Below are positions 17,514 through 40,855 of a stretch of 64,000 bases of DNA, piece after piece. The stretch is from the NCBI RefSeq assembly GCF_000183725.1, contig NC_014762.1, positions 2,418,001 to 2,482,000 of the forward strand, given 5' to 3'. The position numbers and the translations under genes are program-made. Every line of letters starts with the position of its first letter. Position 1 is the first letter of the stretch. Source of the stretch: Sulfuricurvum kujiense DSM 16994. Its GTDB lineage: Bacteria; Campylobacterota; Campylobacteria; Campylobacterales; Sulfurimonadaceae. The notes under the pieces were generated by a model. That model was not told where the DNA came from, searched no databases, and worked only from the letters and a program-made list of their open reading frames with translations.

Positions 17514-17553
17514 TAGAGTAGGTGATGATTCAATTATGCTTTATATGCCATTT

Positions 17554-18339: not shown

Positions 18340-18414
18340 ACTTTTTCCCTTTTAAATACAACGTTTAAATTGAGCAATCAAAAAGCCGCTCGCAGGTCTT
18401 TGATAGGTCTCAAA

Positions 18415-21389: not shown

Positions 21390-22781
21390 CTATGAGCGGT
21401 TAAAAACTCGCTTTGACCTTAAGCGTTTCCCTGCATACCTGCTTTCGTCTTTTGGAGAAAGTGTCATCTTTGTGACAGTAACCCGAAACCCTTTAACTGC
21501 ATTATTTTTATATGGTGCAAAACCGCTACTTCTCAATTTTTTCAGTAAAAAACTTTTACTTGGAACCTTAATCCCTTCATCTTTACACCACTCCACAAAG
21601 GTCTCATATAGCTGCTGATTGCTCATATATCCTTTTTCAGAGTGCGCTATAGATACATCTTCGATAAATCGCTTAACCATGTTAATCTCATCTTCGTAGC
21701 TTTTTACCGCCTTATTGATTGCATCTGATTCAGTAAATCCACCCTGCTTTATTAAACGTCTTAACCCCTCAATAGCTAGATTCAAAATACCAGAAAGCTC
21801 TTTTTCAATCTTTTTATCCAGATATCTGTCTATCTCGTGTTCAGCTATAATTTTGTCAAACTTTATGATTTTCAGCCTTCTTAATAGTCCAAATGACGTA
21901 TCTCCTTGACTAAGTGGTAGGTTATTCATTGCAAAAACGAACTTGGGTAGATCTTTGATAACGTATGCATCATGATACAGACGTCGTCCTGTAATTGGCT
22001 CATTGCTAATAGCCCTTTTGAATTGTGAACTATCGAAATTTTTGTCTGAACTATCAGAACCCACATTAAGCAGTTTCCCATCCATAGTTACAGTTCGATT
22101 GGGATTGCTCAGCTCTTGCAGCTCAACATTACTCGTGTTGTCTTCGCCAACAAACTTCATTAACGTCTTAATAAGCACACTTTTACCGTTTCTTCCATCT
22201 CCAAGCAATAAAAGAGCCGCCTCTAAAGACAAATGCTTTCCAAGCAGAATATAGCCCATGTATTCATAGATCACTTTGATACTATTTTCATCTTGAACCG
22301 TTTCCGCTAAAAACTTTTCAAATATTGGTGCTTTAGCTTCGGGAATATACTCATATGAAAGAACATATCTGTATCCCAAAGAGGGATCAGCTTCATAAAG
22401 CTCTATATCATCTTTTGAGATGCCTAGTAGCCCATTTTGAACATTTATCAGAGCAAGATAGCCCTCGGTTTCTTCGGGAATAAAATACTCGTTTAGTAGT
22501 TCAATATAAACTGATGAAATAAATTTCATTGAAACAGGAATCTTTCCACCAGTCAATTTTTCTATTATTTTTTTCAAGAAGAACGATTGTTCCTGATGCA
22601 CATCGCTGAGTGCTTGAAAATGATTACCAGTCCAAAAGTACAATCTACCTGACATAATAGCAATGACGAAATATTTGTGTATGTGTTTGATTATATCAAA
22701 GCGGTCTAAATCATCTGTCTTAGCCAATGGTTCAATGGAATCGATTATTTTTGTAATAAATTTTAAGAGATTTTTTGACAT
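21390..22781 (-). CDS. phage/plasmid D5-type superfamily 3 helicase
   Basis: 463 residues. A D5_N-like region (about 60-180) precedes an SF3 helicase core: Walker A GDGRNGKS at 194-201, the B region around KLLNVGSDSS, and FVFAMNNLP as motif C. The C-terminal part is a winged-helix-like extension. Such proteins unwind the element's origin during replication. No primase (AEP or TOPRIM) domain is seen in this protein; a zinc-finger protein is encoded just upstream with a 50-bp overlap. AAAGGAA precedes the ATG. This argues for autonomous replication after excision. Confidence 0.85.
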   Translation of the reverse strand: MSKNLLKFITKIIDSIEPLAKTDDLDRFDIIKHIHKYFVIAIMSGRLYFWTGNHFQALSDVHQEQSFFLKKIIEKLTGGKIPVSMKFISSVYIELLNEYFIPEETEGYLALINVQNGLLGISKDDIELYEADPSLGYRYVLSYEYIPEAKAPIFEKFLAETVQDENSIKVIYEYMGYILLGKHLSLEAALLLLGDGRNGKSVLIKTLMKFVGEDNTSNVELQELSNPNRTVTMDGKLLNVGSDSSDKNFDSSQFKRAISNEPITGRRLYHDAYVIKDLPKFVFAMNNLPLSQGDTSFGLLRRLKIIKFDKIIAEHEIDRYLDKKIEKELSGILNLAIEGLRRLIKQGGFTESDAINKAVKSYEDEINMVKRFIEDVSIAHSEKGYMSNQQLYETFVEWCKDEGIKVPSKSFLLKKLRSSGFAPYKNNAVKGFRVTVTKMTLSPKDESRYAGKRLRSKRVFNRS

Positions 22782-23019
22782 GTCGCATTCCTTTACTGCT
22801 TTTAAAAATAGAACTTCTTGTTATCTTCAGGAATGTCCCCATGCTACCGCATGAGTGACAAAATATAAAAACTTGATTATCACTATCTATCACTTTTCTA
22901 ATAAAAACTGATAGATGTTTATTGTCATGCTCACGATTGGGACAGCGAATACTTAAAGGTTCATCATTATCAAGCTGTCGCCCCCATTGTAAGGTAAATA
23001 AAGTAATTGGGATTTCCAT
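22732..23019 (-). CDS. CHC2-like zinc-finger protein (primase zinc domain)
   Basis: 95 residues. CPNREHDNKHLSVFI followed by IFCHSCGSMG gives the C-x4-H ... C-x2-C pattern of primase zinc-binding domains, with no catalytic TOPRIM part. The reading frame runs 50 bp into the helicase gene in another frame, so translation is probably coupled. The last 20 or so residues lie in the overlap and look less constrained. It could load or guide the helicase, or supply the zinc module for an unseen primase. Confidence 0.6.
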   Translation of the reverse strand: MEIPITLFTLQWGRQLDNDEPLSIRCPNREHDNKHLSVFIRKVIDSDNQVFIFCHSCGSMGTFLKITRSSIFKSSKGMRHVKKSLKIYYKNNRFH

Positions 23020-23078
23020 ATTTTTTTCTTATTGTTGATCAAAAAAAGTCATCGGCAGTTTTGCCGACGACACACAAT

Positions 23079-24251
23079 CTACATTGCCATTTTTTCCAAT
23101 TCAATACGTGTATTTTCGGTATCTATATTTCCCATCCGAATGTAGTAACGTTGCGTTGTTGCAATATTACCGTGCCCCAAGCAAGTAGAAACAATAGGTA
23201 TACTAATACCCTTTTCAACTGCAATTGAAGCAAATGTAGCGCGGGTACAGTAAAGAATCTTATACGGTATCCCGAGCCGCTCCAGCATCGGCTTAAATTT
23301 CGAGTCCACAATGCTTCGAGGCTCGCTATATGGCGTCCCTTTATTCGGAACAGGGAATACGTATTCCCTGTGAGTATTGTCTTTCCATTTTAAAAGAGCA
23401 TCGATCAGTCGATGCACCATAGGAACAACCCTTTCAGTATCAGTTTTCGTGACAGATATAATTCCCTTTCGAATACTTCTCCTGATAGTGATTGTCTTAG
23501 TTGAAAAATCAATATCCTCCCACTTTAGGGCCATTATTTCACCCGTCCGTGCCCCTGTTAGAAAAGCAACGTGTAAGAACGCCACTAAAAATGCATGAGA
23601 CAATTTCTCTTTATCATTTGCACCCTCAAATCGATCACTCAATATTTTTTCCACTTCCTCAGCGGTAAAATACTTTGAATTATTGGACTTAGCCTTGATG
23701 AAAAGCTTAGAAGATCGCTTTACCAATGAAATAGGATTTGAACCGATGTAGCCATTTTCAATGGCATAATCCAGAACTCTTTTCACTACGTAATACTTCT
23801 TGTTGAAACGGCTCTGGGAAATTTTCCCTTTGCCCATTTCCACTTGCCATGCTTTGATATCGCTGACTTTGATCTCTTTTAGAGCCATGTTTCCAAATTT
23901 TGGTAAAACGTCCTTCTCTAAAATATTCAAATAATCTTTGCTTCCGTCTTGCTTTCGTCGATATACTGCTGTTTCTTCTAATGCTATGTAGGCGATATCT
24001 ATAAACAGCAGTTCTACCTTGTTTTCATAGTTATCAAATAGTGAATCATAGTGTTTACGCGCCAATTCATACTTCTTCTGCTCTACGTACTTCAATGACA
24101 TCTTACTGCCATCTCTACCTGTCGAACAACGGAACCGATTATCTGTTCTACCTTTGGGTAACTTTACCCCTTTGTGTACGCGAAAATCCAACTTTATAAT
24201 GCCGTTTTCGACAAAAACTCTGACAGATTTAATTACATCTAAATTCTCCAT
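23079..24251 (-). CDS. tyrosine recombinase/integrase
   Basis: 390 residues from the ATG at 24251, which has AAAGGAG eight bases upstream. An N-terminal AP2-like arm-binding region and a SAM-like core-binding domain (about 90-180) precede the catalytic domain. TGARTGEIMALKWEDID carries the first Arg. LYCTRATFAS carries the second Arg, with Tyr in place of the common His of HxxR. CLGHGN and TQRYYI carry the late His and nucleophilic Tyr. It should integrate and excise the island at the tRNA-Ser att sites. It lies about 1 kb inside attR, on the side far from the intact tRNA. Confidence 0.92.
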   Translation of the reverse strand: MENLDVIKSVRVFVENGIIKLDFRVHKGVKLPKGRTDNRFRCSTGRDGSKMSLKYVEQKKYELARKHYDSLFDNYENKVELLFIDIAYIALEETAVYRRKQDGSKDYLNILEKDVLPKFGNMALKEIKVSDIKAWQVEMGKGKISQSRFNKKYYVVKRVLDYAIENGYIGSNPISLVKRSSKLFIKAKSNNSKYFTAEEVEKILSDRFEGANDKEKLSHAFLVAFLHVAFLTGARTGEIMALKWEDIDFSTKTITIRRSIRKGIISVTKTDTERVVPMVHRLIDALLKWKDNTHREYVFPVPNKGTPYSEPRSIVDSKFKPMLERLGIPYKILYCTRATFASIAVEKGISIPIVSTCLGHGNIATTQRYYIRMGNIDTENTRIELEKMAM

Positions 24252-24620
24252 ACGGGCGACTCCTTTCATAAATTTACTTTGCATGAAATCAATCTTTTTT
24301 CTTCAAAAAATATCATTAATAACAAGCACAGGAATAGTATCTCAAGGTGATTTATGGCAATATATTAATTTTGTATTAATATGCTAATATAAATATTTAT
24401 TTTTAGATCCAGTTTAAACAGTGGTTTTTACGTTGCTAAAATCAATTTCGTAAAAATTTCAGATAATAAGGCTATAGCCGCCTTTTAAGTATGAAATAAT
24501 TGGGAATTAGGGGTAATTCTAGGCAGTAAACTTTTATCCATTTAAGAAAACATTTTTTTGAGCTCTTTTTCTGAATGAAGTGCTGTGTAGGCGTTTAAGG
24601 TTGATACAATTTTCAATATC
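24252..24620. other. 369-bp AT-rich gap upstream of the integrase
   Basis: No gene is seen. It must hold the integrase promoter and the 3' end of the small gene to its right. A short stem AAGGC/GCCTT at 24468-24484 followed by TT could be a weak terminator. Confidence 0.4.
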
Positions 24621-24974
24621 TCATTTTTTCAAAACTTTTGCGTGTAAGTCATCCCTCAAAATTTCCTTTCGAAATATCAAACTAACCATAAAATCAGTAT
24701 CAAATCTCACAAGTATCTCCAAAACTCCATTATCATCCTCCTCAATCAGTTCCACCCTCTCCCAAAATGACTCATCGTCAATAGAAGGTATTCGATCATA
24801 ACTCGCCATCAAATCGTCTAACTCTGTGACAATACAAAAATATCCATATTCACACACATGATCAAAATAATCAAATCCATCCGGCAATCGACGAAGTGAA
24901 TATTCAAGATATTCTCTCAATAGCATGTCATCAACCCTATCCACATCCTTGAGTTTTAATATCTCAATAATCAT
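24621..24974 (-). CDS. small acidic protein, unknown function
   Basis: 117 residues from the ATG at 24974 (a TTG two codons upstream is possible). The protein is acidic, with DVDRVDDMLLREYLEYSLRR then SIDDESFWERVELIEEDDNG, and has no membrane helix. I recognise no family. Its position between integrase and attR is where small satellites often keep excisionase or anti-defence genes, but it lacks an obvious DNA-binding motif. Confidence 0.5.
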   Translation of the reverse strand: MIIEILKLKDVDRVDDMLLREYLEYSLRRLPDGFDYFDHVCEYGYFCIVTELDDLMASYDRIPSIDDESFWERVELIEEDDNGVLEILVRFDTDFMVSLIFRKEILRDDLHAKVLKK

Positions 24975-25191
24975 TGTCAATCTTTCAATTCATCTGCTCC
25001 TTCATTTTTTGTGTATAAGTGCATCGACTACGCATTTTACAATCAACAACACGACAATTGGATTCATATAACCTCCTTTCCATATAAGGTTCATAGTATT
25101 AATATGTACCTCATTTAGGACCAGATACGTTAACAATGAAGTGTCTCAAGAAAACTTTCAGCTAAAATGCCTCATACTTCTGCACGTTATA

Positions 25192-25217
25192 TCTCAAAGG
25201 ATTTTCTTCCTTTGAGA
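25192..25217. repeat. 10-bp inverted repeat near attR
   Basis: TCTCAAAGGA (25192-25201) and TCCTTTGAGA (25208-25217) form a perfect stem with a 6-base loop. There is no T-run after it on either strand, so it is not a normal terminator. Confidence 0.6.
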
Positions 25218-25280
25218 CAGTTATAAGTCCCAATATGGGCACAAATAGATTTGATGATTTAGCAGGATCATAGGGTTTCC

Positions 25281-25305
25281 TATACCTTAGCTATATTAAG
25301 GTATA
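25281..25305. repeat. 9-bp inverted repeat abutting attR
   Basis: TATACCTTA and TAAGGTATA are separated by 7 bases and end 3 bp before the 59-bp repeat. Position and symmetry suit a recombinase or excisionase site. Confidence 0.55.
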
Positions 25306-25308
25306 CGT

Positions 25309-25367
25309 TCTTGAAAACCGGCGAGGGTAATACCTCCCAAGGTTCAAATCCTTGGTGGCCCGCCATC
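25309..25367 (+). repeat. attR: second copy of the 59-bp tRNA-Ser repeat
   Basis: Identical to 14225-14283. It has only the 3' part of the tRNA (from the anticodon arm), lacks the 5' half, and cannot form a functional tRNA. Confidence 0.92.
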
Positions 25368-25460
25368 TTATTTCACTTAAACTGCCCTCAAGAAATCTTT
25401 AATTACACCCATTCAACAATCATGTGCAGCAGCGTTATCTTTGTATCAGTTGTATACCCA

Positions 25461-28025
25461 TCAATTTATAACACCAATCTGATTCCTTCCATGTTCTTTT
25501 GCATAATATAGTCCTTGATCAATACGCTTAAAAAGGGTTGTAAATGTATCCTCTTCTCTAAATGTACTTATTCCAAGGCTGATAGTTACATGATGTACTG
25601 TTGGAAAAAAGGCATTTTCAACCGCTGAACGCAGCTTCTCTGCTAGTTTTTGAACATTTTTCAGATCGGTATTCGGGCTCAATACAAGAAACTCTTCCCC
25701 ACCCCAGCGAGCAAAAATATCAATTTTGCGAATATTTTCTCCTATGACATCAGCCAGTGTTTTAAGTACTTCGTCTCCGACATCATGACCGTAGGTATCG
25801 TTAACCACTTTGAAATGGTCAATATCAATGAGTATCAACGAAAGAGGTTGTAAAAATCTACGTGAACGCTCGGTTTCAAGAATAAACAGCTCTTCAAATT
25901 TATGACGGTTATAAATACCCGTAAGTTGATCAATCGTAGCAATGCGCTGTATCTCTTGATTCATCAAAGTTTCAAGAGTAACATCTTTCCCGGTCGAAAC
26001 ATACCCAATAATATTGTCTTTTTCATCTTTGAGCGGTGTAATTGTTTTATCTTCATAATAGAGGTCGCCATTTTTCTTACGATTGATAACAGTGTCTCGA
26101 AAAATATCTCCGTTCGAGATCGTTATCCATAATTTTTTATAAAAATTGTTATCGTACCGATCTGATTTTAATATCCTAAAACTTTCTCCAAGCACTTCAT
26201 TTTCCGTAAACCCTGTATGCTTACAAAATGCCTGATTGACATAGGTAATGATCCCCTGTTTGTCAGTAATGGCAACCGTATCGTCAATTTGTTCGATAAC
26301 TTTGGAGAGTTTATTAATCTCATTCTCGGATTTTTTGATTTCACTCATATCAATAATCATCCCGGAAAGAACTTCCCCGTCCAACGATGCACTAATCATA
26401 ATTGGCAGTGTATTTGAATACCTATCTACCAGCTCTAACTCATAATTAGTAACCACCAGCTCTTGAGATAGTTTTTGAATAAATATTCCCCTTTGTTCCG
26501 GATATTTATACACTAACATGCTTTTTTCACCAATCAATTCATCGGGAGTGCTATAGCCCAGCATTTTTGCCATGGTTTGATTGACATACAGTATTGTTCC
26601 GGAAAGATTACTGCGGTATATGCCGACCATAGCATATTCCACTAAATCTTTATATTTTTGTTCCGATTTTTCAAGCTCATTTTGTGCTACTCTTTCAGCC
26701 GTTATATCCTGTATCATCCCAACCATTTTATTAGGCTTATTATCCTCATATTCGACATACCCCACTGCAAGGACATAACGCTCAGCCCCATCCATTTTGA
26801 TGATTCGATGTGTCAATTTATACTCAGTTTTATACGTCAGCGTATATTTTACTTTCTCTTCTACAATACTCCGATCATCAGGATGAACTCTCTCTAAAAA
26901 AGCTTCATACGTAGCTTTAAAATCCTGTGGTGTAAGTCCGAAAATCCGGTACATTTCATCTGAACACCAGAGTGAGTTACTTTTTATATCCCATATCCAG
27001 TTCCCCAAAAAAGCAAGTTCTTGAGCTTTATTTAAGCGTTCTGAAATGGAAACCAGTTCATTCGCTTGTCTTCTTAATTCAATATTTAAAACTTGAAGTT
27101 CTTGTTCAGCTTTTATACGAAGATTGATCTGATTGTGAAGTATCCGGTTCCAAATGATTATTACTAGAGAAATCACAAATACCCCGCCGATAACTGCCCA
27201 AAACCGCCAATCGTTGAAAATACTCTCTCCCGATGTATTAATCCAGTGCTCATGAATCTCTTCGCGTTCTTTATCGGTGATTGCGTTAATTCCTTTTTGA
27301 AGAATTGTACGCAAGATAGGCTCATCTTTCGAAACTGCCATTGCCAGCTGAATATTGAAATCCGTTTCGCCCGCTACACGGAGATTGGTTATCCCATTGC
27401 TGGAGATCAGATACGATGCGGTAGCCAAATCTATGACAGCTGCATCGGCTCTTCCAAACGAGACATCCAGAAGCGCTTCCATATCGTTTGCAGCTAAGTT
27501 CGGGGTGACAACAATGCCTTTTCTCATAAGATATTCGGTAACCGCGTAGCTTTTTACTAAAGAGACCCTTAGCCCTGTCAAATCTTTTTCACCCATTGCT
27601 CCGTTTCTGTTTTTATTGACAATAATAACATTGGGAACGGAAATAAAAAAGTTAGTAAAAGAAAGAAATTCGGAACGTTTTGGAGTTGCTGTAACGGCAT
27701 TAACAATCTGTATTTCATGATTGCGTACATTACTGAAAATGTCGTCTAGCGACGAAAACCGTTTTTCCTTGAAATGCACCCCTAGTTTTGATGCAACCAA
27801 AAGCATATAGTCATAAGCAAGGCCTGTAGGTTCACCATTGGCGCCAATAAACACAAAAGGGGAATAATTGGTTTCAACCGCATAGACAAGACGTGATTGG
27901 TTCTGTGTCAGCCAAAAACGCTCTTGCGGTGTCAAAATATCTTTAACATCGTCCCTACCGTAGACTACCGTCCCAAAGAAAACTTCTATAAATAAAATCA
28001 AAGCCAAAAAATGGACAATTCTCAT
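25461..28025 (-). CDS. diguanylate cyclase with periplasmic binding domain and PAS domains
   Basis: 854 residues. A signal/anchor (1-23) is followed by an SBP_bac_3-type ligand-binding domain in the periplasm (about 35-275), a transmembrane helix (about 283-303), a coiled coil, three PAS/PAC units (about 335-690) and a C-terminal GGDEF domain. The active site reads GGEEF, and the RxxD inhibitory site (RKID) lies five residues before it, so it should make cyclic di-GMP with product inhibition. It probably senses a small solute such as an amino acid. AAAGG precedes the ATG. It is the first host gene beyond attR. Confidence 0.88.
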   Translation of the reverse strand: MRIVHFLALILFIEVFFGTVVYGRDDVKDILTPQERFWLTQNQSRLVYAVETNYSPFVFIGANGEPTGLAYDYMLLVASKLGVHFKEKRFSSLDDIFSNVRNHEIQIVNAVTATPKRSEFLSFTNFFISVPNVIIVNKNRNGAMGEKDLTGLRVSLVKSYAVTEYLMRKGIVVTPNLAANDMEALLDVSFGRADAAVIDLATASYLISSNGITNLRVAGETDFNIQLAMAVSKDEPILRTILQKGINAITDKEREEIHEHWINTSGESIFNDWRFWAVIGGVFVISLVIIIWNRILHNQINLRIKAEQELQVLNIELRRQANELVSISERLNKAQELAFLGNWIWDIKSNSLWCSDEMYRIFGLTPQDFKATYEAFLERVHPDDRSIVEEKVKYTLTYKTEYKLTHRIIKMDGAERYVLAVGYVEYEDNKPNKMVGMIQDITAERVAQNELEKSEQKYKDLVEYAMVGIYRSNLSGTILYVNQTMAKMLGYSTPDELIGEKSMLVYKYPEQRGIFIQKLSQELVVTNYELELVDRYSNTLPIMISASLDGEVLSGMIIDMSEIKKSENEINKLSKVIEQIDDTVAITDKQGIITYVNQAFCKHTGFTENEVLGESFRILKSDRYDNNFYKKLWITISNGDIFRDTVINRKKNGDLYYEDKTITPLKDEKDNIIGYVSTGKDVTLETLMNQEIQRIATIDQLTGIYNRHKFEELFILETERSRRFLQPLSLILIDIDHFKVVNDTYGHDVGDEVLKTLADVIGENIRKIDIFARWGGEEFLVLSPNTDLKNVQKLAEKLRSAVENAFFPTVHHVTISLGISTFREEDTFTTLFKRIDQGLYYAKEHGRNQIGVIN

Positions 28026-28150
28026 CTTTGAACCTTTCTCTTATTTAATTGATAATAAATTGTATCGTATTCAATACCAATCCTATAATATCATCTTGTT
28101 GTTAAGATTTTATCTCCCTCTATCTAGCCCATGTTATGATTTTTAGCCGA

Positions 28151-28297
28151 TCAAATTTTCTGTGAATGTCGAAAGCGATAAATGGCTATGCCGCACTCAG
28201 ACGCGGGGAAAATCGCCACACCGTAGAGTGCGAGGATCAAAACCGTGGCGGGTAGGGAGACACAGATGACAAAAAAATTGAGACTTTTAGCAAAATC
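28151..28297 (-). pseudogene. decayed fragment of an AEC-family permease
   Basis: Minus-strand translation gives DFAKSLNFFVICVSLPATVL, nearly the same as DFAKSLNFFVIYVSLPATVL of the intact permease at 32274-33161. DNA across about 64 bases agrees at roughly 86%. After that the fragment jumps to LALYGVAIF, matching LSLYGAAVI about 90 residues further on, so an internal piece is lost. There is no start codon or membrane-domain continuation. It occupies most of the 355-bp gap between the GGDEF gene and marR. A past duplication with decay is the simplest reading. Confidence 0.75.
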
Positions 28298-28380
28298 AGT
28301 CCTATCATATTGCTATTGTTATGGTATATTTACCGACTCTATTGCAAAGCGTTGCTTTGAGCCGTGTAAAAAGGAATCGT

Positions 28381-28812
28381 ATGAGTTTTGAATCCGATAA
28401 GTCTATTCTATTTTTGATCGCAAAAGCACGAAACATCCTCAAAAAAGAGTTTGAAAAAGAACTCAAACCTTACGATATCTCCTATGCCCACCGCGTTATT
28501 CTTATCCGTCTCAGCGAAAAAGATTCGGTAACCCAAAAAGAGCTGGCAAAAGACACCTATTTTGAGCAGTCCAATCTAACATTGATGCTCGATAAATTGG
28601 AACAAAAAGGGCTTGTAAAACGTTTGCCGAAAGAAAACGACCGACGGGCTTATCTCATATCGATTACCCCTGAGGGACAAGAGCTAATCGCACCGTTGGT
28701 CGAAATGGGCGAAACCATCATGGAAAAAGCACTTGCCGGCATCTCTTCCGAACAGAAAAAAGAGTTTTCTAAATTTTTAGAACAAATCCATCTTAATTTA
28801 CAAAAGAAATAA
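28381..28812 (+). CDS. MarR-family transcriptional regulator
   Basis: 143 residues from the ATG at 28381, with AAGGA upstream; an earlier in-frame ATG at 28321 has no ribosome site and would extend into the gap. The winged helix lies at about 45-105: SVTQKELAKDTYFEQSNLTL is the recognition part and KENDRRAYLISITPEG the wing. Long terminal helices give the dimer. MarR proteins usually repress nearby genes in answer to phenolic or oxidative signals; the double-CDGSH gene downstream is a possible target. Confidence 0.85.
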   Translation: MSFESDKSILFLIAKARNILKKEFEKELKPYDISYAHRVILIRLSEKDSVTQKELAKDTYFEQSNLTLMLDKLEQKGLVKRLPKENDRRAYLISITPEGQELIAPLVEMGETIMEKALAGISSEQKKEFSKFLEQIHLNLQKK

Positions 28813-28892
28813 AATCCGACCTAATCTTATTTTTTTATCTATTTCTATCGAAGCCGTGTTATGATTTTCTACTTTCGCATGAGGAGTAGCGT

Positions 28893-29129
28893 ATGGACAC
28901 CCATTTTCAAAATGATCCCTTTAAAGCTTCGCTCGATGCCAATAAAGAGTATTGGTACTGTACCTGCGGACAATCGGATACCTTTCCGTTTTGCGACGGA
29001 AACCATGAAGGAACCGGCAAATTGCCGATAAAATTTTCTGAAGAGGTCGAGACGGATAAGTGGCTCTGCCGATGCGGCCGATCAGGTCGCAAACCCTACT
29101 GTGACGGTTCTCACCAACAAGGGGGATAA
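28893..29129 (+). CDS. double-CDGSH iron-sulfur protein
   Basis: 78 residues with two CDGSH (mitoNEET-type) motifs: CTCGQSDTFPFCDGNH and CRCGRSGRKPYCDGSH. Each supplies three Cys and one His for a [2Fe-2S] cluster. The double-motif small form is widespread in bacteria; roles in electron or cluster transfer are proposed for the family. There is no signal peptide, so it is cytoplasmic. It follows marR by 80 bp on the same strand and may be co-transcribed. Confidence 0.88.
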   Translation: MDTHFQNDPFKASLDANKEYWYCTCGQSDTFPFCDGNHEGTGKLPIKFSEEVETDKWLCRCGRSGRKPYCDGSHQQGG

Positions 29130-29136
29130 CTTCTCG

Positions 29137-31218
29137 TTACAGCCCTTCTATCAGGATCGTTCGTATCTCATCCGCCGGTTTCGGCTTGGAATAAAAATAG
29201 CCTTGGATATTGATACAGCCGTTTTGAACTAAAAAGTCTTTTTGTTCAGCGGTTTCAACACCTTCTGCGATAACATCGAGATTTAGGCTCTGTGCCATCG
29301 CTATGATGGCTTTGGTAATGGCTACATCTTCTTCATCGTCCGGCAATTCACGGACAAATGACTGGTCAATTTTGAGTTTGTTAATCGGAAGTTTTTTAAG
29401 ATAGGAGAGGGAAGAGTACCCGGTTCCGAAATCATCTACCGCTATTTTTACCCCGATACGGCTGATCTCTCTTAAAATATCTATCGCCTCATCCGGATGA
29501 ATCATAATCTGATCCTCCGTTACCTCGAGTTCTACCCACTCGATGCTGCATCCGGTTTCTGCCAAAAGGGTTTTTAAATATTCTATAAAATCTTTTTGCT
29601 GCAGTTGTTTCATCGTAAGATTCATCGACAGAATCCCGGGGTTTAACCCCTCTTTGTACCACTGAGCAATTTGGGTCATGGCATGCTTCATAACATATCG
29701 GTCAAGCTCGACAATAAGTCCTGTCGACTCGGCTATCGGGATGAACACGGCAGGAGAAACAAGTCCGACGGTAGGGCTGTTCCACCGCACCAAAGCTTCC
29801 ATCCCGAATAAGCGGTTCTCTTTTCCGTTGACTTGAGGTTGAAAGTAGACGATAAATTCTCCGTTTTTAAGCCCGGCACGCAGGCTTGTCTCCATCACAA
29901 CACGTTCTAAAGCGCGCGTCGTCATTTCCGAACTGTAATAGCGGACATTGTTTCTCCCCTCATTTTTAGCCGCATACATAGCCGCATCGGCATATTTGAG
30001 GAGATCTTGCGTAGTATCGCCGTTATCGGGATAAAGGCTGATCCCTATGCTGCATCCCACATAGAGTTCATGATGATCAACCGCAATCGGTGCTAAAAGA
30101 ACATTTAAAATCTTATCGGCCAGCAATGATACCTCTTCCAGATTTTGAAGCTCTTCAATAATCACCGTGAATTCGTCCCCGCCGAAACGGGCCAGAGACT
30201 CTTCTTTGTCTATCGTATGCTTTAATCTTTGGGTTACGATAGTCAAAACTTTATCCCCCGCCTCATGCCCGAGAGAATCATTAATCTCTTTAAAATGATC
30301 CAAATCGACAAAAAGAAGGGCCATTCGCGTATTGCGAATTTTCGATTTTTCTATCGCATATTCCAGTCTTTCACTAAACAAGACTCTATTGGCCAATCCC
30401 GTCAATGCATCATGGGTCGCTTGATACTGCAAAGCATTTTTTTGTGCGCGCAGCTGGTTATGCTGCTCCAGCAGCGCTATTTTAAAGGCTCTTATTGATT
30501 TGATCATCGTATTCATCGTCGATGCAAGAGTAAAAATTTCCCTCGCTTTAAATTCCGGGACAAATGAAAGGGGTATTCCGTCGTCATCGCTGTTACTGAT
30601 CACACGTACCATGCTTGATAACGGTTTCAAAATAAACAGACGTATGGCGATAAAAAGAAATACAATCATTAACAAAGAAGTTATCAGCATATTGACTAAC
30701 GATTCTACAATGATCTTATTAAGCTCTACTTGCATAACCTTATCTGAGATGTAGATACTCACCGTTCCGATTTTTTCTTTCTCAGGGGAGAACAAAGTAT
30801 ATGTATCCGAGTAATAGCACTGTTTTAATTGTTCACGCTGTGCCGTATTGTTTGGGACAAAGTCGACAATCTTACCTTTGGAATCGCGAATTTTTCCGCT
30901 GATATAGGTACCGCTCCCTAAAATCTCCCCCGTTTTAAAGTCTTCTACAACGATCGCAAACATATCGTTTGGTTCCATTGCATTCAATACAAGGGTGTCA
31001 TATTCATTGACGGCGTATGACTCTATCAGATTCGTCACATTTTTTTGAAGCGAAGATATAGTAAGTTTTGAAGTTCTTTTCATCTCCTCAATCATCTGAT
31101 TCTTTCTCTTTTGGTAATCGTGAATCGAATGAATGGACATACTGATGAATACCGTTGAGACAATAATAATCCCCAACGTAACGTAAATAGATTGTCTGGA
31201 AGAGAATGGCAACTTCAT
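29137..31218 (-). CDS. membrane GGDEF-EAL protein
   Basis: 693 residues. A first membrane helix (about 10-30), a periplasmic sensor of about 150 residues, a second helix (about 183-205), a HAMP-like linker, a GGDEF domain (ARFGGDEF) and an EAL domain follow in order. EALVR and DDFGTGYSSL are intact, so phosphodiesterase activity is likely. The GGDEF lacks an RxxD inhibitory site. The gene overlaps the upstream periplasmic binding protein by 4 bp, which suggests that protein is its sensor partner, comparable to NspS-MbaA in Vibrio; that comparison is inference. Confidence 0.87.
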   Translation of the reverse strand: MKLPFSSRQSIYVTLGIIIVSTVFISMSIHSIHDYQKRKNQMIEEMKRTSKLTISSLQKNVTNLIESYAVNEYDTLVLNAMEPNDMFAIVVEDFKTGEILGSGTYISGKIRDSKGKIVDFVPNNTAQREQLKQCYYSDTYTLFSPEKEKIGTVSIYISDKVMQVELNKIIVESLVNMLITSLLMIVFLFIAIRLFILKPLSSMVRVISNSDDDGIPLSFVPEFKAREIFTLASTMNTMIKSIRAFKIALLEQHNQLRAQKNALQYQATHDALTGLANRVLFSERLEYAIEKSKIRNTRMALLFVDLDHFKEINDSLGHEAGDKVLTIVTQRLKHTIDKEESLARFGGDEFTVIIEELQNLEEVSLLADKILNVLLAPIAVDHHELYVGCSIGISLYPDNGDTTQDLLKYADAAMYAAKNEGRNNVRYYSSEMTTRALERVVMETSLRAGLKNGEFIVYFQPQVNGKENRLFGMEALVRWNSPTVGLVSPAVFIPIAESTGLIVELDRYVMKHAMTQIAQWYKEGLNPGILSMNLTMKQLQQKDFIEYLKTLLAETGCSIEWVELEVTEDQIMIHPDEAIDILREISRIGVKIAVDDFGTGYSSLSYLKKLPINKLKIDQSFVRELPDDEEDVAITKAIIAMAQSLNLDVIAEGVETAEQKDFLVQNGCINIQGYFYSKPKPADEIRTILIEGL

Positions 31219-33613: not shown

Positions 33614-34654
33614 TTGCGAACCGCAAAAACGGATCAGCGCAAACGGATGGTACGTGCCGAAGTATTATGGCCGATCTTGATGTTTTTACAAAAAGGGTAC
33701 GGTTTTGATCCCCGTGCTTTTTTAGCGGCACGAGGCTTGGATATGCAGACTCTGCAGGCCAAAGATACGCAGGTCAATGCCGCGTACCTCTCGGAACTGT
33801 TTGATGAGGCAACCCACTTTACCGGTGATGCCAATCTCTCTTTTAAGCTGGGAGAATGGGCGAATCCCCACTCTCTAGGAGTATTCGGCTATCTTTTATT
33901 GCATTCTCGGGATATTAATGAAGCGTTGCAGAAACTGTGCCGCTATTATCCCCTTATCGGACGGACCCTCAAACCTCTCCTCGCGGAAACCAAAAACCGT
34001 TACAAGCTCGGTTTTATGTTCTACTTTGACGGTGAATTTACCCCTTTGGGCAAATATCAATCGGAAATCCATCTCTCTGCGGCATTGAGCCTCATCAATA
34101 AAATCGCTTCGGAAAAAATCATCCCCGAGTATGCGACATTCAGACATGATCAGCCCTCGGATCTGAGCGAATACAAACGGATATTCGGAGAAAAGCTTTA
34201 TTTCGGAGAAGATGAAAACGCCCTCATTTTTTCGAAAGAATCGTTGGCGGTCAAAACCCTCTATGAAAATCCATCCCTTCTGCGACTGTTTGAAGACGAG
34301 GCGGAAAAATCTCTGGGAATGGAGATTCACGGAGGACTCAAAGAGGAGATATCGGGGCTGATCCTTATCTGTGCCGGAGAACTCGATTTTACACTCGAAG
34401 GGGTTGCACACAAAGCGGGGTTGCATCCCCGTACGCTGCAAAAAAAGCTCAAAGAGGAAGGGAGCAGTTATTCGCAGCTTTTGAGTGAAGTGCGTAAAAA
34501 ACTTTCCAAACGCTATCTGCTGGAGAAAATAGATGTCGGTACTATTTCGGTTTATCTGGGGTATTCTGACGTTACCGCCTTTTTGCGTGCCTTTAAAAAA
34601 TGGTACGGACTCAGCCCCGGAGAATGGCTTGCTTCCGAAAAGTCGGTAAAATAA
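33614..34654 (+). CDS. AraC-family regulator (OruR/ArgR-like)
   Basis: 346 residues. An N-terminal Arabinose_bd-type domain (about 20-210) is followed by a C-terminal AraC double HTH (about 240-340: LEGVAHKAGLHPRTLQKKL and SVYLGYSDVTAFLRAFKKWY). TTG 33614 is preceded by GAAGGG; an ATG at 33647 lacks a site. It diverges from cowN and is followed closely by an MBL-fold hydrolase gene that may be its target. Confidence 0.8.
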   Translation: MRTAKTDQRKRMVRAEVLWPILMFLQKGYGFDPRAFLAARGLDMQTLQAKDTQVNAAYLSELFDEATHFTGDANLSFKLGEWANPHSLGVFGYLLLHSRDINEALQKLCRYYPLIGRTLKPLLAETKNRYKLGFMFYFDGEFTPLGKYQSEIHLSAALSLINKIASEKIIPEYATFRHDQPSDLSEYKRIFGEKLYFGEDENALIFSKESLAVKTLYENPSLLRLFEDEAEKSLGMEIHGGLKEEISGLILICAGELDFTLEGVAHKAGLHPRTLQKKLKEEGSSYSQLLSEVRKKLSKRYLLEKIDVGTISVYLGYSDVTAFLRAFKKWYGLSPGEWLASEKSVK

Positions 34655-34680
34655 TAGTACCGAAAAGGGGTACTACCGTA

Positions 34681-35592
34681 ATGCATCGATATACGTCGCC
34701 GAGACTCTCGTTTTTGACCATAGCCAAATGGCAGTTCTCAAAATCTTTACGAAAAAAAGATCCTGTCGTTTCAACGCTGCCGATCATCTCCCAAGATGAA
34801 CTCCCCAAGGGCGATTATGCCCTATGGCTCGGGCACGCAACGCTCTGGCTTAACATAGGAGGCACAACGGTGGCTATCGATCCGGTCTTGGGAGATATCC
34901 CTCTCTATCGCCGCCATACCCCCCTTCCCCTCCCGAGAGAGAAACTCTATGCCGATGTGATCCTCATTACCCATGCCCATTATGACCATTTCGACAAAGC
35001 GTCCGTCGACTATCTTCTCAAACACAACCCCGAAATAATCGTTGTCGCCCCCAACGGGTTTTGGCGTTATCTGAAAGGAAAAATCGATCGGGAACGGTGT
35101 TTCGAGCTTGAATTGTGGGAATCACTGATGGTCAAAGGGCTTTTCATCACGCTGACGCCGAGCAAACACTGGAGCAAAAGAACACCGTTTGATACCAACA
35201 AAGCGTTATGGGGAGGGTATGTCATCCAAAACAGCGAACACACCCTCTACCATGCGGGAGACAGCGCGTATGGAGAACATTTCAAAGAGATCGGCGAGAG
35301 ATTCGATATCGACGAGGCTTTTTTGCCGATCGGAGCCTACCGCCCCGAAGAAATCATGCGGCATAATCATTTAAATCCCCCCGAAGCGCTCCAAGCGGCG
35401 GAAGATCTTGGGGCCAAAACGGTGGTTCCGATCCATTACGGAACATTCATCCTCTCGGACGAGCCGATTCATGAACCGATCGAATGGTTCGAAAAACTCA
35501 CCCATTCGCACGAATATCCTTTCGATACACGTGCGCTGAAGATCGGCGAAATTTACCGTTTCAATGAAACGTCAACACTCAAATCGACTTGA
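34681..35592 (+). CDS. metallo-beta-lactamase-fold hydrolase (NAPE-PLD/UlaG-like)
   Basis: 303 residues from the ATG at 34681; an in-frame extension overlaps the AraC gene and is less likely. The THAHYDHFD metal motif, LYHAGDSAYG, and the late PIHYGTF give the beta-lactamase-fold ligands in order. LWLGHATLWLNIGG and the SKHWSKRTPFDTN stretch are as in bacterial NAPE-PLD-like hydrolases. The substrate could be a phospholipid or another phosphodiester. Its last 40 bp overlap the convergent yceI gene. Confidence 0.8.
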   Translation: MHRYTSPRLSFLTIAKWQFSKSLRKKDPVVSTLPIISQDELPKGDYALWLGHATLWLNIGGTTVAIDPVLGDIPLYRRHTPLPLPREKLYADVILITHAHYDHFDKASVDYLLKHNPEIIVVAPNGFWRYLKGKIDRERCFELELWESLMVKGLFITLTPSKHWSKRTPFDTNKALWGGYVIQNSEHTLYHAGDSAYGEHFKEIGERFDIDEAFLPIGAYRPEEIMRHNHLNPPEALQAAEDLGAKTVVPIHYGTFILSDEPIHEPIEWFEKLTHSHEYPFDTRALKIGEIYRFNETSTLKST

Positions 35593-36083
35593 TCCCGTAC
35601 GGTCAAAAACATCATCTTAATCGGTTTGATACCGTAATCGGTCATCTTCAAACCGCTCGCGGCTTTGATGCGGACTTTATTCCCCTCTTCACTGATCGTC
35701 CCCTCAAAACTCATCGGTTTGCTCACACCGTGCAAGGTCATCGTCCCTTTTAGGGTATACGAATCTCCCCCTTTGGCAACAACCTCTTTGATATCAAAGG
35801 TCGCTTTGGGAAACGACGCGGATTCTAATGCTTCCTGCATATGTTCATCCCGCTTTTTGTTATCGCTGAAAAGATCGCTCATGGAGACTTCTATTGCACC
35901 TTTTAACGTAGAAGGAGAAGCATCCATACTCAGATGCGAGGTTGCTTTCTTAGCCATCGGATCAATCGTAGAATCTCCGAATACCTCTGTATGCGCTTTA
36001 ATCGTTCCCGATTCAAAACTCAAATTTCCCGCATATACCGAAGCAGCCAACAATACTGCCGTAATACTTAATTTTCCAATCAT
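35553..36083 (-). CDS. YceI-family periplasmic lipid-binding protein
   Basis: 176 residues with a signal peptide (1-18, ending VYAG) and the YceI lipocalin-like barrel: SHLSMDASPSTLKGAIEVSM, then FPKATFDIKEV and LTLHGVSKPM-like strands. Known YceI structures bind isoprenoid quinone-like lipids in the periplasm. It is the last gene of a six-gene overlapping operon (ATGA with the previous gene) that includes a heme-copper-oxidase-like protein. Its 3' end overlaps the convergent hydrolase gene by 40 bp. Confidence 0.85.
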   Translation of the reverse strand: MIGKLSITAVLLAASVYAGNLSFESGTIKAHTEVFGDSTIDPMAKKATSHLSMDASPSTLKGAIEVSMSDLFSDNKKRDEHMQEALESASFPKATFDIKEVVAKGGDSYTLKGTMTLHGVSKPMSFEGTISEEGNKVRIKAASGLKMTDYGIKPIKMMFLTVRDQVDLSVDVSLKR

Positions 36084-37033
36084 GCAAGTCTCCTAAAATA
36101 AAATGGATACATCAATGCGGCCATTCCTAAAACCCCTGCAGCTATCCATATCTGATGTTCCAATGCGACAGCGTTCGCGGCAGAGGTAGCAATCCAGCCG
36201 ACACCTACCATCGATAATCCGATTAGACGTATATCCGCCAGACGGATCAGAGCCTGAAATAACAGCACATTATAATACGAAATGACAATCGGATAGATAA
36301 CCGCTAACGCAATCGGTTCTTTCAGCCAATACAATACATAACTGAGGACAAATAAAAACCAAATTGTCCGCGTTTGACTCATCAGTTCGCCGCCGTAACG
36401 ATACGCCAAAAAGACTCCTGCCAAATGGGAAGAAATAATCAGAAGCGTGTAATGGCTCCAAATATCCATACTCCCCGATCTGCTAAGGGTCTCAAAAAGT
36501 GCCGAATCGGCAAAAATCCAAAGCATCATTATCCCAAGAGTAGACCAACGAAACGGTTGTTTTTCACTGTAAAGTGTCGATTGCAAACGGGTATAGCGCA
36601 ACGCGATGACCGATATCATAGGTAAAAGTATCGCGATATCTCCGCGCTGTAAAAACGGATACGTATACAATGACGTTCCCACCGCATACGATATCGCCAG
36701 ACCGAGGGCCAGCTGCCCTCTGCTTTGCGACCTGAACATATACAAAAGCAGCGGCGTCGTATATCCGATTACAAACCCCAGAACCAGAAGCATCCCCAGT
36801 GAATAGTCGGGATAAAACCACGAAATGATGATCTGTATCCCGAATAAAAAACAAAGTTCTGTCTTGATACCGTAATGGCGCCAGAATGCACCGAACAAAC
36901 TCCCGATCACCCCACCGATCGGAAGGGTATAGAGATCATGGATATGAGAATCAAATGCTCCGACGACCCCGGTTTGCGCGATCAACAGATAATACAGAAG
37001 CTGAGAGCTTAGGACTATAACAAGGAAGTTCAA
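36080..37033 (-). CDS. polytopic membrane protein, unknown function
   Basis: 317 residues, with about ten predicted membrane helices covering nearly the whole length and short charged loops. I recognise no family and see no catalytic motif. It overlaps both neighbours by 4 bp (ATGA type), so it is translated together with the oxidase-like protein upstream and YceI downstream, and probably belongs to one complex or pathway with them. Confidence 0.65.
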   Translation of the reverse strand: MNFLVIVLSSQLLYYLLIAQTGVVGAFDSHIHDLYTLPIGGVIGSLFGAFWRHYGIKTELCFLFGIQIIISWFYPDYSLGMLLVLGFVIGYTTPLLLYMFRSQSRGQLALGLAISYAVGTSLYTYPFLQRGDIAILLPMISVIALRYTRLQSTLYSEKQPFRWSTLGIMMLWIFADSALFETLSRSGSMDIWSHYTLLIISSHLAGVFLAYRYGGELMSQTRTIWFLFVLSYVLYWLKEPIALAVIYPIVISYYNVLLFQALIRLADIRLIGLSMVGVGWIATSAANAVALEHQIWIAAGVLGMAALMYPFYFRRLA

Positions 37034-38574
37034 TCTCTACCCCGCAGCACTAGCCAATAAACTAAAGCAAATGAAGTGTCATACACCGCAACCAGCAAAG
37101 CGATACCGTCCATGCTTCCGGCCAAATAAAGGGCAGCAAATACCGAAGCGCATACAGTGCGTATCGCCGCGCTGAGCGAAGCCATCCTCTCCGCCGCGTA
37201 ATGCAGTCCCATCCAATGCACCATCCCCGTCCCGATCATAAAGGCAAATACGACATACTCATACGTTCCGCCAAAATGAAATCCGAACAGAGGAAAAAGG
37301 AGCGCGCCGCCGATCAGAAGGATCACCCCTCCACCCGCATCACTCAAAAAACCGGCCGCATGATACAGTTTTAGCGGAGTATCCAGAGGTAATCGAAGCC
37401 GTATATAGGCAATGCGAAGCACCATGGCGACCAAGAGTAACCCTATTAGAGCACGCAGTGCCAAGAAAAAATCAACATTACCGGCAATAATTTTGGCCTC
37501 TATCAGCCCGGAAACGGTTAGAACAATCGCCATCAAAGCCATCAATACCGTCCATGCGACCGCATATATTCGACGGAACAAATGAGGGAGGAGATGATGC
37601 AAGATGGCAAGTGCCATAAATGCGACTCCTAAGCCCATTGCGATATGGGCATGCCCCACTACCAAATCGTTGCGATGGATCAGTGCACGTATTTCAGGGA
37701 TAAAGAGAAAGTTTCCCTCTACATCGACAAAGACAAACGCGGCGATCGATAAAATCAAATAAGGGTTGGTTTTGAATGTGACCCCCGCATCGCGGAGCCA
37801 TCCCCATAAAAGGGGGAGATAGAGCAATGTCAGATACTGAAAGAACCACTCTTCCCCGTAACTGAGGCTATGAAAAAAATTACGGATGATGAGCGATACG
37901 ATGTACCCGACCAAAGGGAGCAACCATAACCAATGTCTTCTGGGTTCAAATTTCTGCGTGGCGACAAGCTTAATCAGCAGATAATAGATCGGAATAAGGA
38001 CGAAACTCATCCCCAGCGTATTATCACCGTGCGGTCCGACCAGCGTCTGTTCGACCTGCCCGTATTGCGGATTCATCAATACCACCAATGCTATCGGCGC
38101 GGCGATCACGGCCAAAAGCGATACATTGACCCACAACGGACGCTTTTCATAGCGGCGCAATGCATCGACGAGTGCGAGAAGATAAAACAGACCGCTAAAG
38201 GCGAGGAGAAAATTGAGCTGATAGGGGAAATCGTAAAACGGCAACCCGCGAATATTTCCAAACAGCAGTGCCATGCTCATAAAGAGCAAAAAGAGATTCC
38301 AGACGACGAAATAGCGGCGCAAATGCCCTATCGCAACGTCGGACAACACCCCCTCTTTTTGAAAGAGGGCAAACGGTAATAAGGAGAGCATTAGAGGGAA
38401 AAATCCGTACAGCATCTGCGAAATATGGAGTGATCGAGCTCGCTCGGGAGAAAACAGCGTCTGTGAGCCGTCCAATCCCAGCATCTCTACCGCATACACC
38501 AATCCGGCAAAAAGTCCGAGAATCAGCCATATAAGAGCGAGAGGAAGTTCATCATTTATGAATTTGTTTAACAA
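37030..38574 (-). CDS. heme-copper oxidase subunit I-like protein lacking CuB ligands
   Basis: 514 residues, about 12-14 membrane helices. Alignment by eye to CcoN: ERARSLHISQMLYG gives the helix-II heme ligand (His50), and VVGHAHIAMGLG gives the helix-X H-x-H pair (His308, His310). The CuB His of YGHNAVG is replaced (GDNTLG, Asp184), and the helix-VII His-His pair is absent (RNFFHSL). It therefore probably binds two hemes but cannot reduce O2 in the normal way. It overlaps the ABC ATPase gene by 23 bp and the next membrane protein by 4 bp. A role in heme or quinone electron transfer is inference. Confidence 0.65.
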   Translation of the reverse strand: MLNKFINDELPLALIWLILGLFAGLVYAVEMLGLDGSQTLFSPERARSLHISQMLYGFFPLMLSLLPFALFQKEGVLSDVAIGHLRRYFVVWNLFLLFMSMALLFGNIRGLPFYDFPYQLNFLLAFSGLFYLLALVDALRRYEKRPLWVNVSLLAVIAAPIALVVLMNPQYGQVEQTLVGPHGDNTLGMSFVLIPIYYLLIKLVATQKFEPRRHWLWLLPLVGYIVSLIIRNFFHSLSYGEEWFFQYLTLLYLPLLWGWLRDAGVTFKTNPYLILSIAAFVFVDVEGNFLFIPEIRALIHRNDLVVGHAHIAMGLGVAFMALAILHHLLPHLFRRIYAVAWTVLMALMAIVLTVSGLIEAKIIAGNVDFFLALRALIGLLLVAMVLRIAYIRLRLPLDTPLKLYHAAGFLSDAGGGVILLIGGALLFPLFGFHFGGTYEYVVFAFMIGTGMVHWMGLHYAAERMASLSAAIRTVCASVFAALYLAGSMDGIALLVAVYDTSFALVYWLVLRGRD

Positions 38575-39184
38575 TGCCGTCCTCCATCTCGATGATTATG
38601 TCCGCATAATCGGCTATTTTTTTATCATGCGATGCCACCACAAACCCCGTACCCTCATGCGAAAACCGTTTAAAAAGCTCATACACTCCGAGGGCATTTT
38701 TCGTATCCAGATTCCCCGTCGGTTCATCGGCAAATACGACGGAGGGGTGGTTAATCAGTGCCCGGGCAATCGCGGCGCGCTGACGCTCTCCGCCGGAGAC
38801 CTCGTCACTGTAGCGTCTTGCTAATTTCTCGATTCCGAGTTCCCCTAAAAGGGGATCGACCAATGACGGGTCTAGCGCCGCCAACGCAATATTCTCCCGC
38901 AATGTCAGATACGAAATCAAATAGTGAAATTGGAATACGAATCCGATATGTTCCCGCCTGAAACGGTCTATATTGCCAAGTTCGCCAAGGCTTTTCCCGT
39001 CATACGTCACAGCCCCTTTTGTAGGCTGCAATAGGGTGGACAAAAGCGATAGCAGCGTTGTTTTTCCGCTTCCGCTCTCACCGATAATGGCGGTAAAGCT
39101 TCCCGGCTCGATCACGACATCCACGCCGCGCAATACCTGTTCATGTCCATAGAAATGTTCTAATGCGTGACCTTCGATCTTCAT
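38552..39184 (-). CDS. ABC transporter ATP-binding protein (LolD/MacB type)
   Basis: 210 residues with Walker A GESGSGKTTL, Q-loop FVFQFHYLI, signature VSGGERQR, Walker B VVFADEPTGNLD and the switch His in VVASHDKK. This is the MacB/LolD subgroup, which pairs with FtsX-type permeases for lipoprotein or mechanotransmission work rather than import. It overlaps the FtsX gene by 4 bp and the oxidase-like gene by 23 bp. Confidence 0.92.
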   Translation of the reverse strand: MKIEGHALEHFYGHEQVLRGVDVVIEPGSFTAIIGESGSGKTTLLSLLSTLLQPTKGAVTYDGKSLGELGNIDRFRREHIGFVFQFHYLISYLTLRENIALAALDPSLVDPLLGELGIEKLARRYSDEVSGGERQRAAIARALINHPSVVFADEPTGNLDTKNALGVYELFKRFSHEGTGFVVASHDKKIADYADIIIEMEDGIVKQIHK

Positions 39185-40260
39185 GCGCCGCCTCGCTGTA
39201 TTAGGCTCATAGGATCGATGCGGGAGGCATATATCGCGGGCAAAAGGGTACCGAAGAGTGCCATGCTCACCGAGACGATAAATACCTTTATCGCCAATAC
39301 CGCTGTAATCTCTCCGTTAATGTATCCCTGAAATTTATCGGCATGTTTGATCATCTCCAATACCGCTTCCGAAACGCCATACGCCACCGCAAATGCCACC
39401 AGGGCGATAATCAGCGTTTCACTCAGGAGTTTGAAAATAATCACCCGAGAAGAGAGCCCAACGGAACGCATTATCCCAAATTCCGCTTTGCGGTCGTTTA
39501 CGACCATGCTCATCATACTGACAATCCCCAAAATCCCCATCAAAAAGGCCATCGCCCCGATCACATCGGAGCTCGTTTTGATGATTTTGAACTGATTGTA
39601 CTGCTCGATAAATCCGTCCGTGGTTTTCGCTTCCGTTTCGCTATACGTTGCGTTAATCTGATCGATAAGCGCGTCGCTTTTGCCTAAATCGTTTAATGCG
39701 ATCAAAAAAATGGAGGCACTTTTATGAAAGAGTTCTCCCGCATCCGAGAGTCCCATAACCACCCCTCCGTCTTCAAATCCGATACGGCTTTTAAACACCC
39801 CGCTGACGCGAAACGTTTTTTTGGAGAGGGAAATCGTCTCGGGGCGTTTGAGCGTTTCATAAATTTTGGAACCGAGCATCACCTCGCCCGATGCAGGGTA
39901 CGCACCTTGTTTGAGCGCATAGCTTTTAAAGCGGTTCTCGCTCGCGCCGTATATTCCGACGATGGGGAGCGGATCGACGGGCGCTGCCCCTAATATAAGG
40001 GCGCTTACCTCTTTTACCCCCTCCATTTTTTCGATTTTACCGATAACCGAACGGTTGATATCGCTAAAAAACGTATCGGCGATCCCTTTTTGGGTAACGA
40101 TAATATCTCCGTCCGTTTTGAGCATCGAGCTGTACATACTCACCACCCCGCCCGCTATTGCACTGATCAGAAAAATAGCGGCGATCGAGACCGTCATACT
40201 GATAAAAATAAGCGCCGTTTTGAAACGGTTTTTACGCAGCGCTTTAAGGGGGGTAATCAC
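39181..40260 (-). CDS. FtsX-like ABC permease (MacB/LolC type)
   Basis: 359 residues. One N-terminal helix (about 16-40), a periplasmic MacB_PCD domain (about 45-230) and three C-terminal helices (about 235-355) form the usual FtsX layout. The conserved ending ASRIDPMSLIQRGG is present. It works with the ATPase downstream (4-bp overlap). Only one permease gene is present, so a homodimer is expected. No membrane-fusion protein or outer-membrane partner is adjacent. Confidence 0.88.
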   Translation of the reverse strand: MITPLKALRKNRFKTALIFISMTVSIAAIFLISAIAGGVVSMYSSMLKTDGDIIVTQKGIADTFFSDINRSVIGKIEKMEGVKEVSALILGAAPVDPLPIVGIYGASENRFKSYALKQGAYPASGEVMLGSKIYETLKRPETISLSKKTFRVSGVFKSRIGFEDGGVVMGLSDAGELFHKSASIFLIALNDLGKSDALIDQINATYSETEAKTTDGFIEQYNQFKIIKTSSDVIGAMAFLMGILGIVSMMSMVVNDRKAEFGIMRSVGLSSRVIIFKLLSETLIIALVAFAVAYGVSEAVLEMIKHADKFQGYINGEITAVLAIKVFIVSVSMALFGTLLPAIYASRIDPMSLIQRGGA

Positions 40261-40715
40261 TGTTCGATCGCTGCTTTAAGCTCATCAGCGGTAGCAACGT
40301 ATTCGATAGCTTTAAGGGTGTTTTTCTCAAATCGAAGTACGGTGATTTTCCCCTCTTGTGCAGGGAACTTCAATCCGGTTTCCTCATCGCGTATCAACAA
40401 AACGGTATACGGATATTTTCGCATTTTCGGCAATGCGAACGCCTCGGCAATAAACGTCGGCATCGGCGAGATATCGGCAATATACGCCGCATGATGTTCA
40501 GAAAGATAGGTGCCGTTTTGTTTACCCAGACAATCATTAACCGTTGCGGACGTCTCTTTTTCAAACGCCATAACAAGGGTTTTCGGCATCGTTTTAAGGG
40601 CAATTTTCTTTCCGAACTGATCGTTCAAATCCAACGGCATAACCGACTGCCCTATTGTGTACGGTGCCGCCCAAACACTCAGTGCTACCAATAATAAAAC
40701 AATACTTTTTTTCAT
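40257..40715 (-). CDS. periplasmic thioredoxin-fold-like protein without CxxC
   Basis: 152 residues with a signal peptide (1-16, ending VWAAP). MPLDLNDQFGKKIALKTMPK looks like the start of a TlpA/AhpC-type fold, and YPYTVLLIRDEETG and IEYVATADELKAAI follow the later strands and helix. There is no CxxC pair, only one Cys, so it is not a normal thiol oxidoreductase. It is the first gene of the overlapping six-gene operon, with AAGGA before its ATG. Confidence 0.6.
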   Translation of the reverse strand: MKKSIVLLLVALSVWAAPYTIGQSVMPLDLNDQFGKKIALKTMPKTLVMAFEKETSATVNDCLGKQNGTYLSEHHAAYIADISPMPTFIAEAFALPKMRKYPYTVLLIRDEETGLKFPAQEGKITVLRFEKNTLKAIEYVATADELKAAIEQ

Positions 40716-40764: not shown

Positions 40765-40855
40765 CGGATTATCTTTTTTCGAATGATGTTAACACTGTAT
40801 TATGAATTTTTAATGAAAGAGCGTACGGAGAACAAAAGGGGAAAGAGGCCCCTCG

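Follow-up and report, generated by a model that had tools for sequence, protein, structure and literature searches.

In Burkholderia, defense against lipid peroxyl radicals is provided by the cytochrome b561 LcoA and the YceI protein BcnA, of which LcoA has been proposed to re-reduce quinone carried in the lipocalin; YceI proteins bind ubiquinone-8 (PMC9113575). In Escherichia coli, yceJ and yceI lie side by side. Here we describe a six-gene cluster within a 64,000-nucleotide stretch of the Sulfuricurvum kujiense DSM 16994 chromosome (NC_014762.1, positions 2,418,001 to 2,482,000; hereafter the window) that is like both of these pairs in combining a YceI periplasmic carrier with a membrane protein predicted to hold two b haems. 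While the haem protein of the Burkholderia system is a b561, the candidate here has a haem-copper oxidase fold, from which the ligands of the catalytic metal (CuB) have been lost, and it is encoded with an FtsX-type ATP-binding cassette (ABC) pair and a protein of major facilitator superfamily (MFS) fold. No paper describing this cluster was found among the open-access literature searched, in agreement with a first-pass annotation of the window that had considered it undescribed.

The cluster comprises six minus-strand open reading frames (ORFs), running from position 40715 of the window down to 35553, with successive overlaps of 4, 4, 23, 4, and 4 bp:

Gene 1, 40257..40715, minus strand: 152-amino-acid (aa) protein with a signal-like N-terminal segment.
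Gene 2, 39181..40260, minus strand: FtsX/MacB-type ABC permease with a MacB-like periplasmic core domain (Pfam).
Gene 3, 38552..39184, minus strand: LolD/MacB-type ABC ATPase (Pfam, NCBIfam).
Gene 4, 37030..38574, minus strand: 514-aa haem-copper-oxidase-fold protein (Pfam COX1, predicted model, alignment).
Gene 5, 36080..37033, minus strand: 317-aa MFS-fold membrane protein (predicted model).
Gene 6, 35553..36083, minus strand: YceI-family periplasmic lipocalin-like protein with a signal-like N-terminus (Pfam).

These are the six overlapping genes that the first-pass annotation had reported, and its proposal that they work as one functional unit is supported by the analysis that follows.

Gene 4 passed the Pfam COX1 cut-off by a single bit (35.8 bits vs. 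34.8), and a PDB profile search with 34 of its relatives matched the cbb3 oxidase subunit CcoN (E 4e-4). The AlphaFold2 model (predicted local distance difference test, pLDDT, 87) has the 12-helix fold of oxidase subunit I, and its best matches over residues 1-399 were the cytochrome c-dependent nitric oxide (NO) reductase, cNOR (Z 25.3), and cbb3 (Z 24.3-24.5; Foldseek E 3e-7). Residues 400-510 are modeled as four additional C-terminal helices beyond this core, in which Y404, D412, H453, R472, and D499 are invariant among 60 distinct relatives. Gene 4 thus resembles CcoN and NorB in its 12-helix fold (Z 24-25), its low-spin and second-haem His ligands and a conserved His/Asp loop before the HxH motif, but differs from them in lacking CuB/FeB ligands and cytochrome c subunits and in its four extra helices. 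In a tree built from 393 columns, for which 17 oxidase-like sequences had been trimmed to 400 residues, the gene-4 group formed a deep branch separate from CcoN, NorB, and CtaD (support 0.87), although with such low identities the order of branching is unreliable. Campylobacterota also hold a second COX1-like family, of ~410-435 aa (L111:1064-2338, L112:896-2191, L113:2229-3536, L114:1600-2871, L115:2078-3313, and L116:2250-3482), which keeps the His at the haem position of transmembrane helix 2 (TM2), has neither the HxH motif nor the CuB His residues, and is another degenerate oxidase-like lineage.

The retention of haem ligands in gene 4 is strict: H50, H308, and H310, together with H300 and D303, were invariant in 60/60 distinct relatives, with divergence down to ~45% identity. 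When the gene-4 family was aligned jointly with 14 CcoN, 9 NorB, and 3 CtaD sequences, His also filled the H50, H300, H308, and H310 columns throughout the other three families, and by this alignment H50 and H310 are the ligands of the low-spin haem and H308 that of the second, high-spin haem. The three CuB/FeB columns, in contrast, hold His in all 26 CcoN, NorB, and CtaD sequences and D184, I229, and I230 in gene 4. Among the 60 relatives, position 184 is always Asp, position 229 carries a hydrophobic or small residue, in most cases I, L, A, or V, and position 230 is I, H, Y, T, or W; none has an adjacent His pair (HH) in residues 222-240, and H182 is invariant too. A pairwise profile alignment had placed H235 at a CuB position, an assignment we dropped since the multi-family alignment puts all real HH pairs on columns 229-230. 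The first-pass annotation had named His 50, 308, and 310 as haem ligands and had noted Asp and non-His residues where CuB should be bound, and both observations hold when the 514-residue protein is modeled and aligned with CcoN and NorB. No electron-input subunit (cytochrome c or CuA) was found among the six genes or their recurrent neighbors. With haem ligands that never vary and a CuB site that is lost, gene 4 looks like an electron carrier with two haems, or a haem-pocket protein, rather than a terminal reductase, and it is unlikely to be an oxidase or NO reductase.

We examined the distribution of the cluster in 397 Campylobacterota genomes, and its neighborhood at 27 loci. Strong matches to gene 4 and matches to gene 5 fell in an identical set of 60/397 genomes and in 0/337 of the remainder (nominal hypergeometric P ~1e-72, which serves only as a guide because the genomes are related). 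The FtsX, ATPase, and oxidase-like genes were contiguous in 27/27 loci, accompanied by gene 5 in all 27, by YceI in 26/27, and by gene 1 nearby in 17/27. Two arrangements were observed, either the order seen in the window or one with the MFS and YceI genes shifted ahead of FtsX. L060 and L061 likewise have overlapping ATPase and oxidase-like genes (by 17 bp), and gene order is kept across several Campylobacterota families. An apparent ABC-oxidase gene fusion in L062 was rejected, as what looked like its N-terminal part is the ATPase gene read out of frame, and a separate ABC match is present there. The cluster is absent from most sampled genomes of a sister genus (g2) and from two sampled families (f2 and f3), probably Sulfurimonas-, Helicobacter-, and Campylobacter-type. 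A single scan of genome contigs with the gene 4 protein returned 24 loci, all of them in Campylobacterota, and a search of plasmids returned none. Within genera holding both states, we saw no link between the cluster and NosZ (~18/42 with the cluster vs. 20/38 without) or cytochrome bd (15/42 vs. 11/38).

The ABC pair that accompanies gene 4 shares with the MacB, LolCDE, and YtrF systems an FtsX permease with a MacB-like periplasmic domain and a LolD-type ATPase. Gene 2 scored 63.7 bits with Pfam FtsX and 46.9 bits with MacB_PCD, and its PDB matches were YtrF, MacB, and LolF; gene 3 scored 113 bits with ABC_tran. Neither is a Lol equivalog: the best NCBIfam match of gene 3, LolD, reached 186 bits vs. 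a cut-off of 307.75, and the Lol permease score of gene 2 was 53.5 bits vs. 362, while a separate LolF-like gene in the same genome (C4:1493593; 257 bits) is a much better match. Unlike the known systems, the operon has no MacA or TolC partners, and the partners encoded instead are the oxidase-like, MFS-fold, and YceI proteins. Elsewhere in the same genome (L058:8513-18487), a NorC/NorB-like pair is followed by other genes and then by an efflux-type set of TolC, HlyD-like, FtsX, and ABC genes.

Gene 5, described in the first-pass annotation simply as polytopic, is indeed a membrane protein and can now be assigned a 12-helix MFS fold from its model (pLDDT 91; Foldseek E down to 2e-5). The model aligns with MelB at Z 25.5 over 308 residues, and the fold is common to MFS transporters such as MelB, NorA, MFSD2A, and Spns1 (Z 23-25). 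It differs from these in being just 317 aa long, in finding no relevant family in Pfam or NCBIfam, and in being confined to genomes with the oxidase-like gene. Gene 6 is a clear YceI protein (Pfam, 80.7 bits), whose PDB relatives include YceI, BcnB, and proteins named polyisoprenoid-binding, and it supplies the counterpart of the lipocalin gene of the LcoA-BcnA system. The Sulfuricurvum genome has four YceI paralogues, and inspection of ORFs found no b561 gene beside the others. Gene 1 had been read as a thioredoxin-fold protein, which was not borne out: no match was found in Pfam or NCBIfam or, with a 20-sequence profile, in PDB, and the 20 sequences contain no CXXC motif or conserved Cys, the conserved motifs being F-x-K, MP, and FALPKxRxY. 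That it has a degenerate thioredoxin- or peroxiredoxin-like fold is only a guess.

Outside the core genes, two further features border the cluster:

Terminator-like hairpin, 40836..40854, minus strand: just upstream of gene 1 (pattern match only).
Metallo-beta-lactamase (MBL)-fold hydrolase, 34600..35592, plus strand: convergent neighbor, not core, sharing its last 40 bp with gene 6.

The hairpin (40854-40836) is probably the end of the upstream gene's transcript; lying upstream of gene 1 on the same strand, it is consistent with a unit that begins at 40715. The MBL hydrolase is, in other lineages, either co-directional inside the cluster or replaced by a YaeI/LpxG-like phosphoesterase, and 24/27 loci have one or the other inside the cluster or next to it. 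The neighbors that recur are either the MBL hydrolase or this phosphoesterase, after which come genes for a response regulator and a histidine kinase. Two-component genes adjoin the cluster in many loci and are absent at several, including the flanks of the Sulfuricurvum cluster. In some g2 genomes (L064:6262-6939, L071, and L077), a conserved small lipoprotein-like gene with a weak DUF3313 match lies ahead of the cluster. In genus g28, the oxidase-like gene of L075 (G379) is frameshifted into three pieces and, in a second genome, the MFS-like gene (G056:C1:1010020-1011934) is split, which suggests recent decay or assembly errors. Also in the window, positions 14001-30000 form a ~16 kb segment of G+C 33-42%, in surroundings of mostly 45-50%, that is possibly a horizontally acquired island.

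The first-pass annotation had suggested a membrane system that moves haem, quinone, or electrons, and such a system is plausible; a machine for redox or lipid handling in the envelope is more probable than an oxidase. In our preferred explanation, which we put forward tentatively, the six genes would specify a single complex of the envelope, in which a di-haem b protein is coupled to the handling of a lipid-like carrier at the periplasmic face. Since the His ligands of both haems are kept, gene 4 can probably carry electrons, and neither O2 reduction nor the coupling of two NO molecules is expected of a protein that has no CuB or FeB site. Electrons would be taken from the menaquinol pool, carried within the membrane, and passed either to a ligand carried by the YceI protein or to peroxyl or superoxide species in the periplasm, along the lines put forward for LcoA-BcnA. 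A further reading, a possibility short of a probability, is that an FtsX-type transporter, driven by ATP and partnered by MFS-fold and lipocalin proteins, either receives electrons from the CuB-less oxidase-fold protein or is gated by it, and would thereby couple the redox state of the respiratory chain to envelope lipid or quinone traffic. The MacB/LolCD-type ABC pair would extract or load lipid at the expense of ATP, and the MFS-fold protein may move or flip a lipid-like molecule, the candidate carriers being menaquinone, a polyprenyl lipid, or damaged phospholipid. The phosphoesterase and MBL neighbors fit lipid chemistry, short of proof. What was observed is which genes are present and linked, the predicted fold, the conserved ligands, and the missing CuB residues; from these we infer haem content, electron path, substrate, and a physical complex.

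Several points weigh against this proposal. The residue-level placement of the gene 4 ligands comes from sequence alignment at 16-18% identity, and because the active-site loops are low-confidence in the haem-free model (residues 177-180 and 301-307, pLDDT <50), the absence of metal at the CuB site is itself deduced from the sequence. Gene 1, with no CXXC motif, offers no obvious redox partner. The Pfam matches of the six genes include no cytochrome b561 adjoining YceI, so that the parallel with LcoA stands by analogy, and the substrates ascribed to the MFS and ABC parts are likewise deduced.

Ranking next, and in our view rather unlikely, is a MacB/Lol-like machine for lipid or lipoprotein transport or maintenance in which the oxidase-like protein serves as a haem sensor or gate: O2, NO, or quinone state sensed by the haem would tune the ABC transporter and be reported by the neighboring two-component system. 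FtsX-type ABC systems do work with membrane sensors, as in BceAB-BceS and FtsEX, and a free haem-ligand pocket left by CuB loss, the phosphoesterase or MBL neighbors, and the response regulator and histidine kinase adjoining many loci are all in keeping with such a role. However, the two-component genes are missing at several loci, that of Sulfuricurvum among them, no sensor domain was seen, and both haem-ligand sets are retained, beyond the needs of a simple sensor. We consider it unlikely that the system instead exports or inserts haem or quinone for cytochrome or oxidase maturation, with the oxidase-like protein as acceptor or chaperone. ABC, MFS, and lipocalin parts do share one operon, and the binding of ubiquinone-8 by YceI proteins (PMC9113575) would suit this role, but 337/397 genomes do without the MFS-like and oxidase-like genes though most surveyed genomes have a haem-copper oxidase, indicating that the cluster is not needed for oxidase maturation, and its presence follows neither NosZ nor bd oxidase. 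The partnership of YceI proteins with di-haem cytochromes known elsewhere also favors quinone or lipid redox over haem export.

The remaining explanations concern gene 4 itself. That it is a real O2 or NO reductase with an unusual metal site, in which D184 would be joined by H182, H230, or H235 as ligands, is improbable. The oxidase fold and the invariance of H182 and D184 speak for it, as does the His that many relatives have at 230 or 235; yet the TM7 segment is without a His pair in 60/60 relatives, a hydrophobic or small residue occupies position 229, the extra His differs in position between clades, no cytochrome c subunit is encoded in the cluster, and cbb3 and a cNOR-like pair are already encoded elsewhere in the genome. 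Similarly improbable is a non-redox scaffold or lipid channel that has lost its haem as well. The active-site loops of gene 4 are poorly modeled, and the HxH motif is also gone from some oxidase-like relatives of ~420 aa in the phylum, but the invariance of H50, H300, D303, H308, and H310 in 60/60 sequences diverging to ~45% identity is hard to reconcile with haem loss.

The interpretation given in the first-pass annotation therefore stands as to a single unit, a CuB-less protein with both haem-ligand sets, and the lack of a described system in the open-access papers searched, and is not supported as to the thioredoxin fold of gene 1. To our knowledge, nearly all known haem-copper-type proteins are reductases of O2 or NO in respiration, and a pass with the COX1 model does not make the relatives of gene 4 cytochrome oxidase subunits. 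The components of the cluster belong to known superfamilies; an oxidase fold coupled to an ABC/MFS lipid system, if real, would be a new kind of system. A protein that keeps its haem ligands, has lost the catalytic metal, and is fixed in an operon with ABC, MFS-fold, and YceI proteins would show that the oxidase fold has found a second use in redox or lipid work at the envelope, and would open to test how sulfur-oxidizing and microaerophilic Campylobacterota protect or service their membrane lipids and menaquinone.

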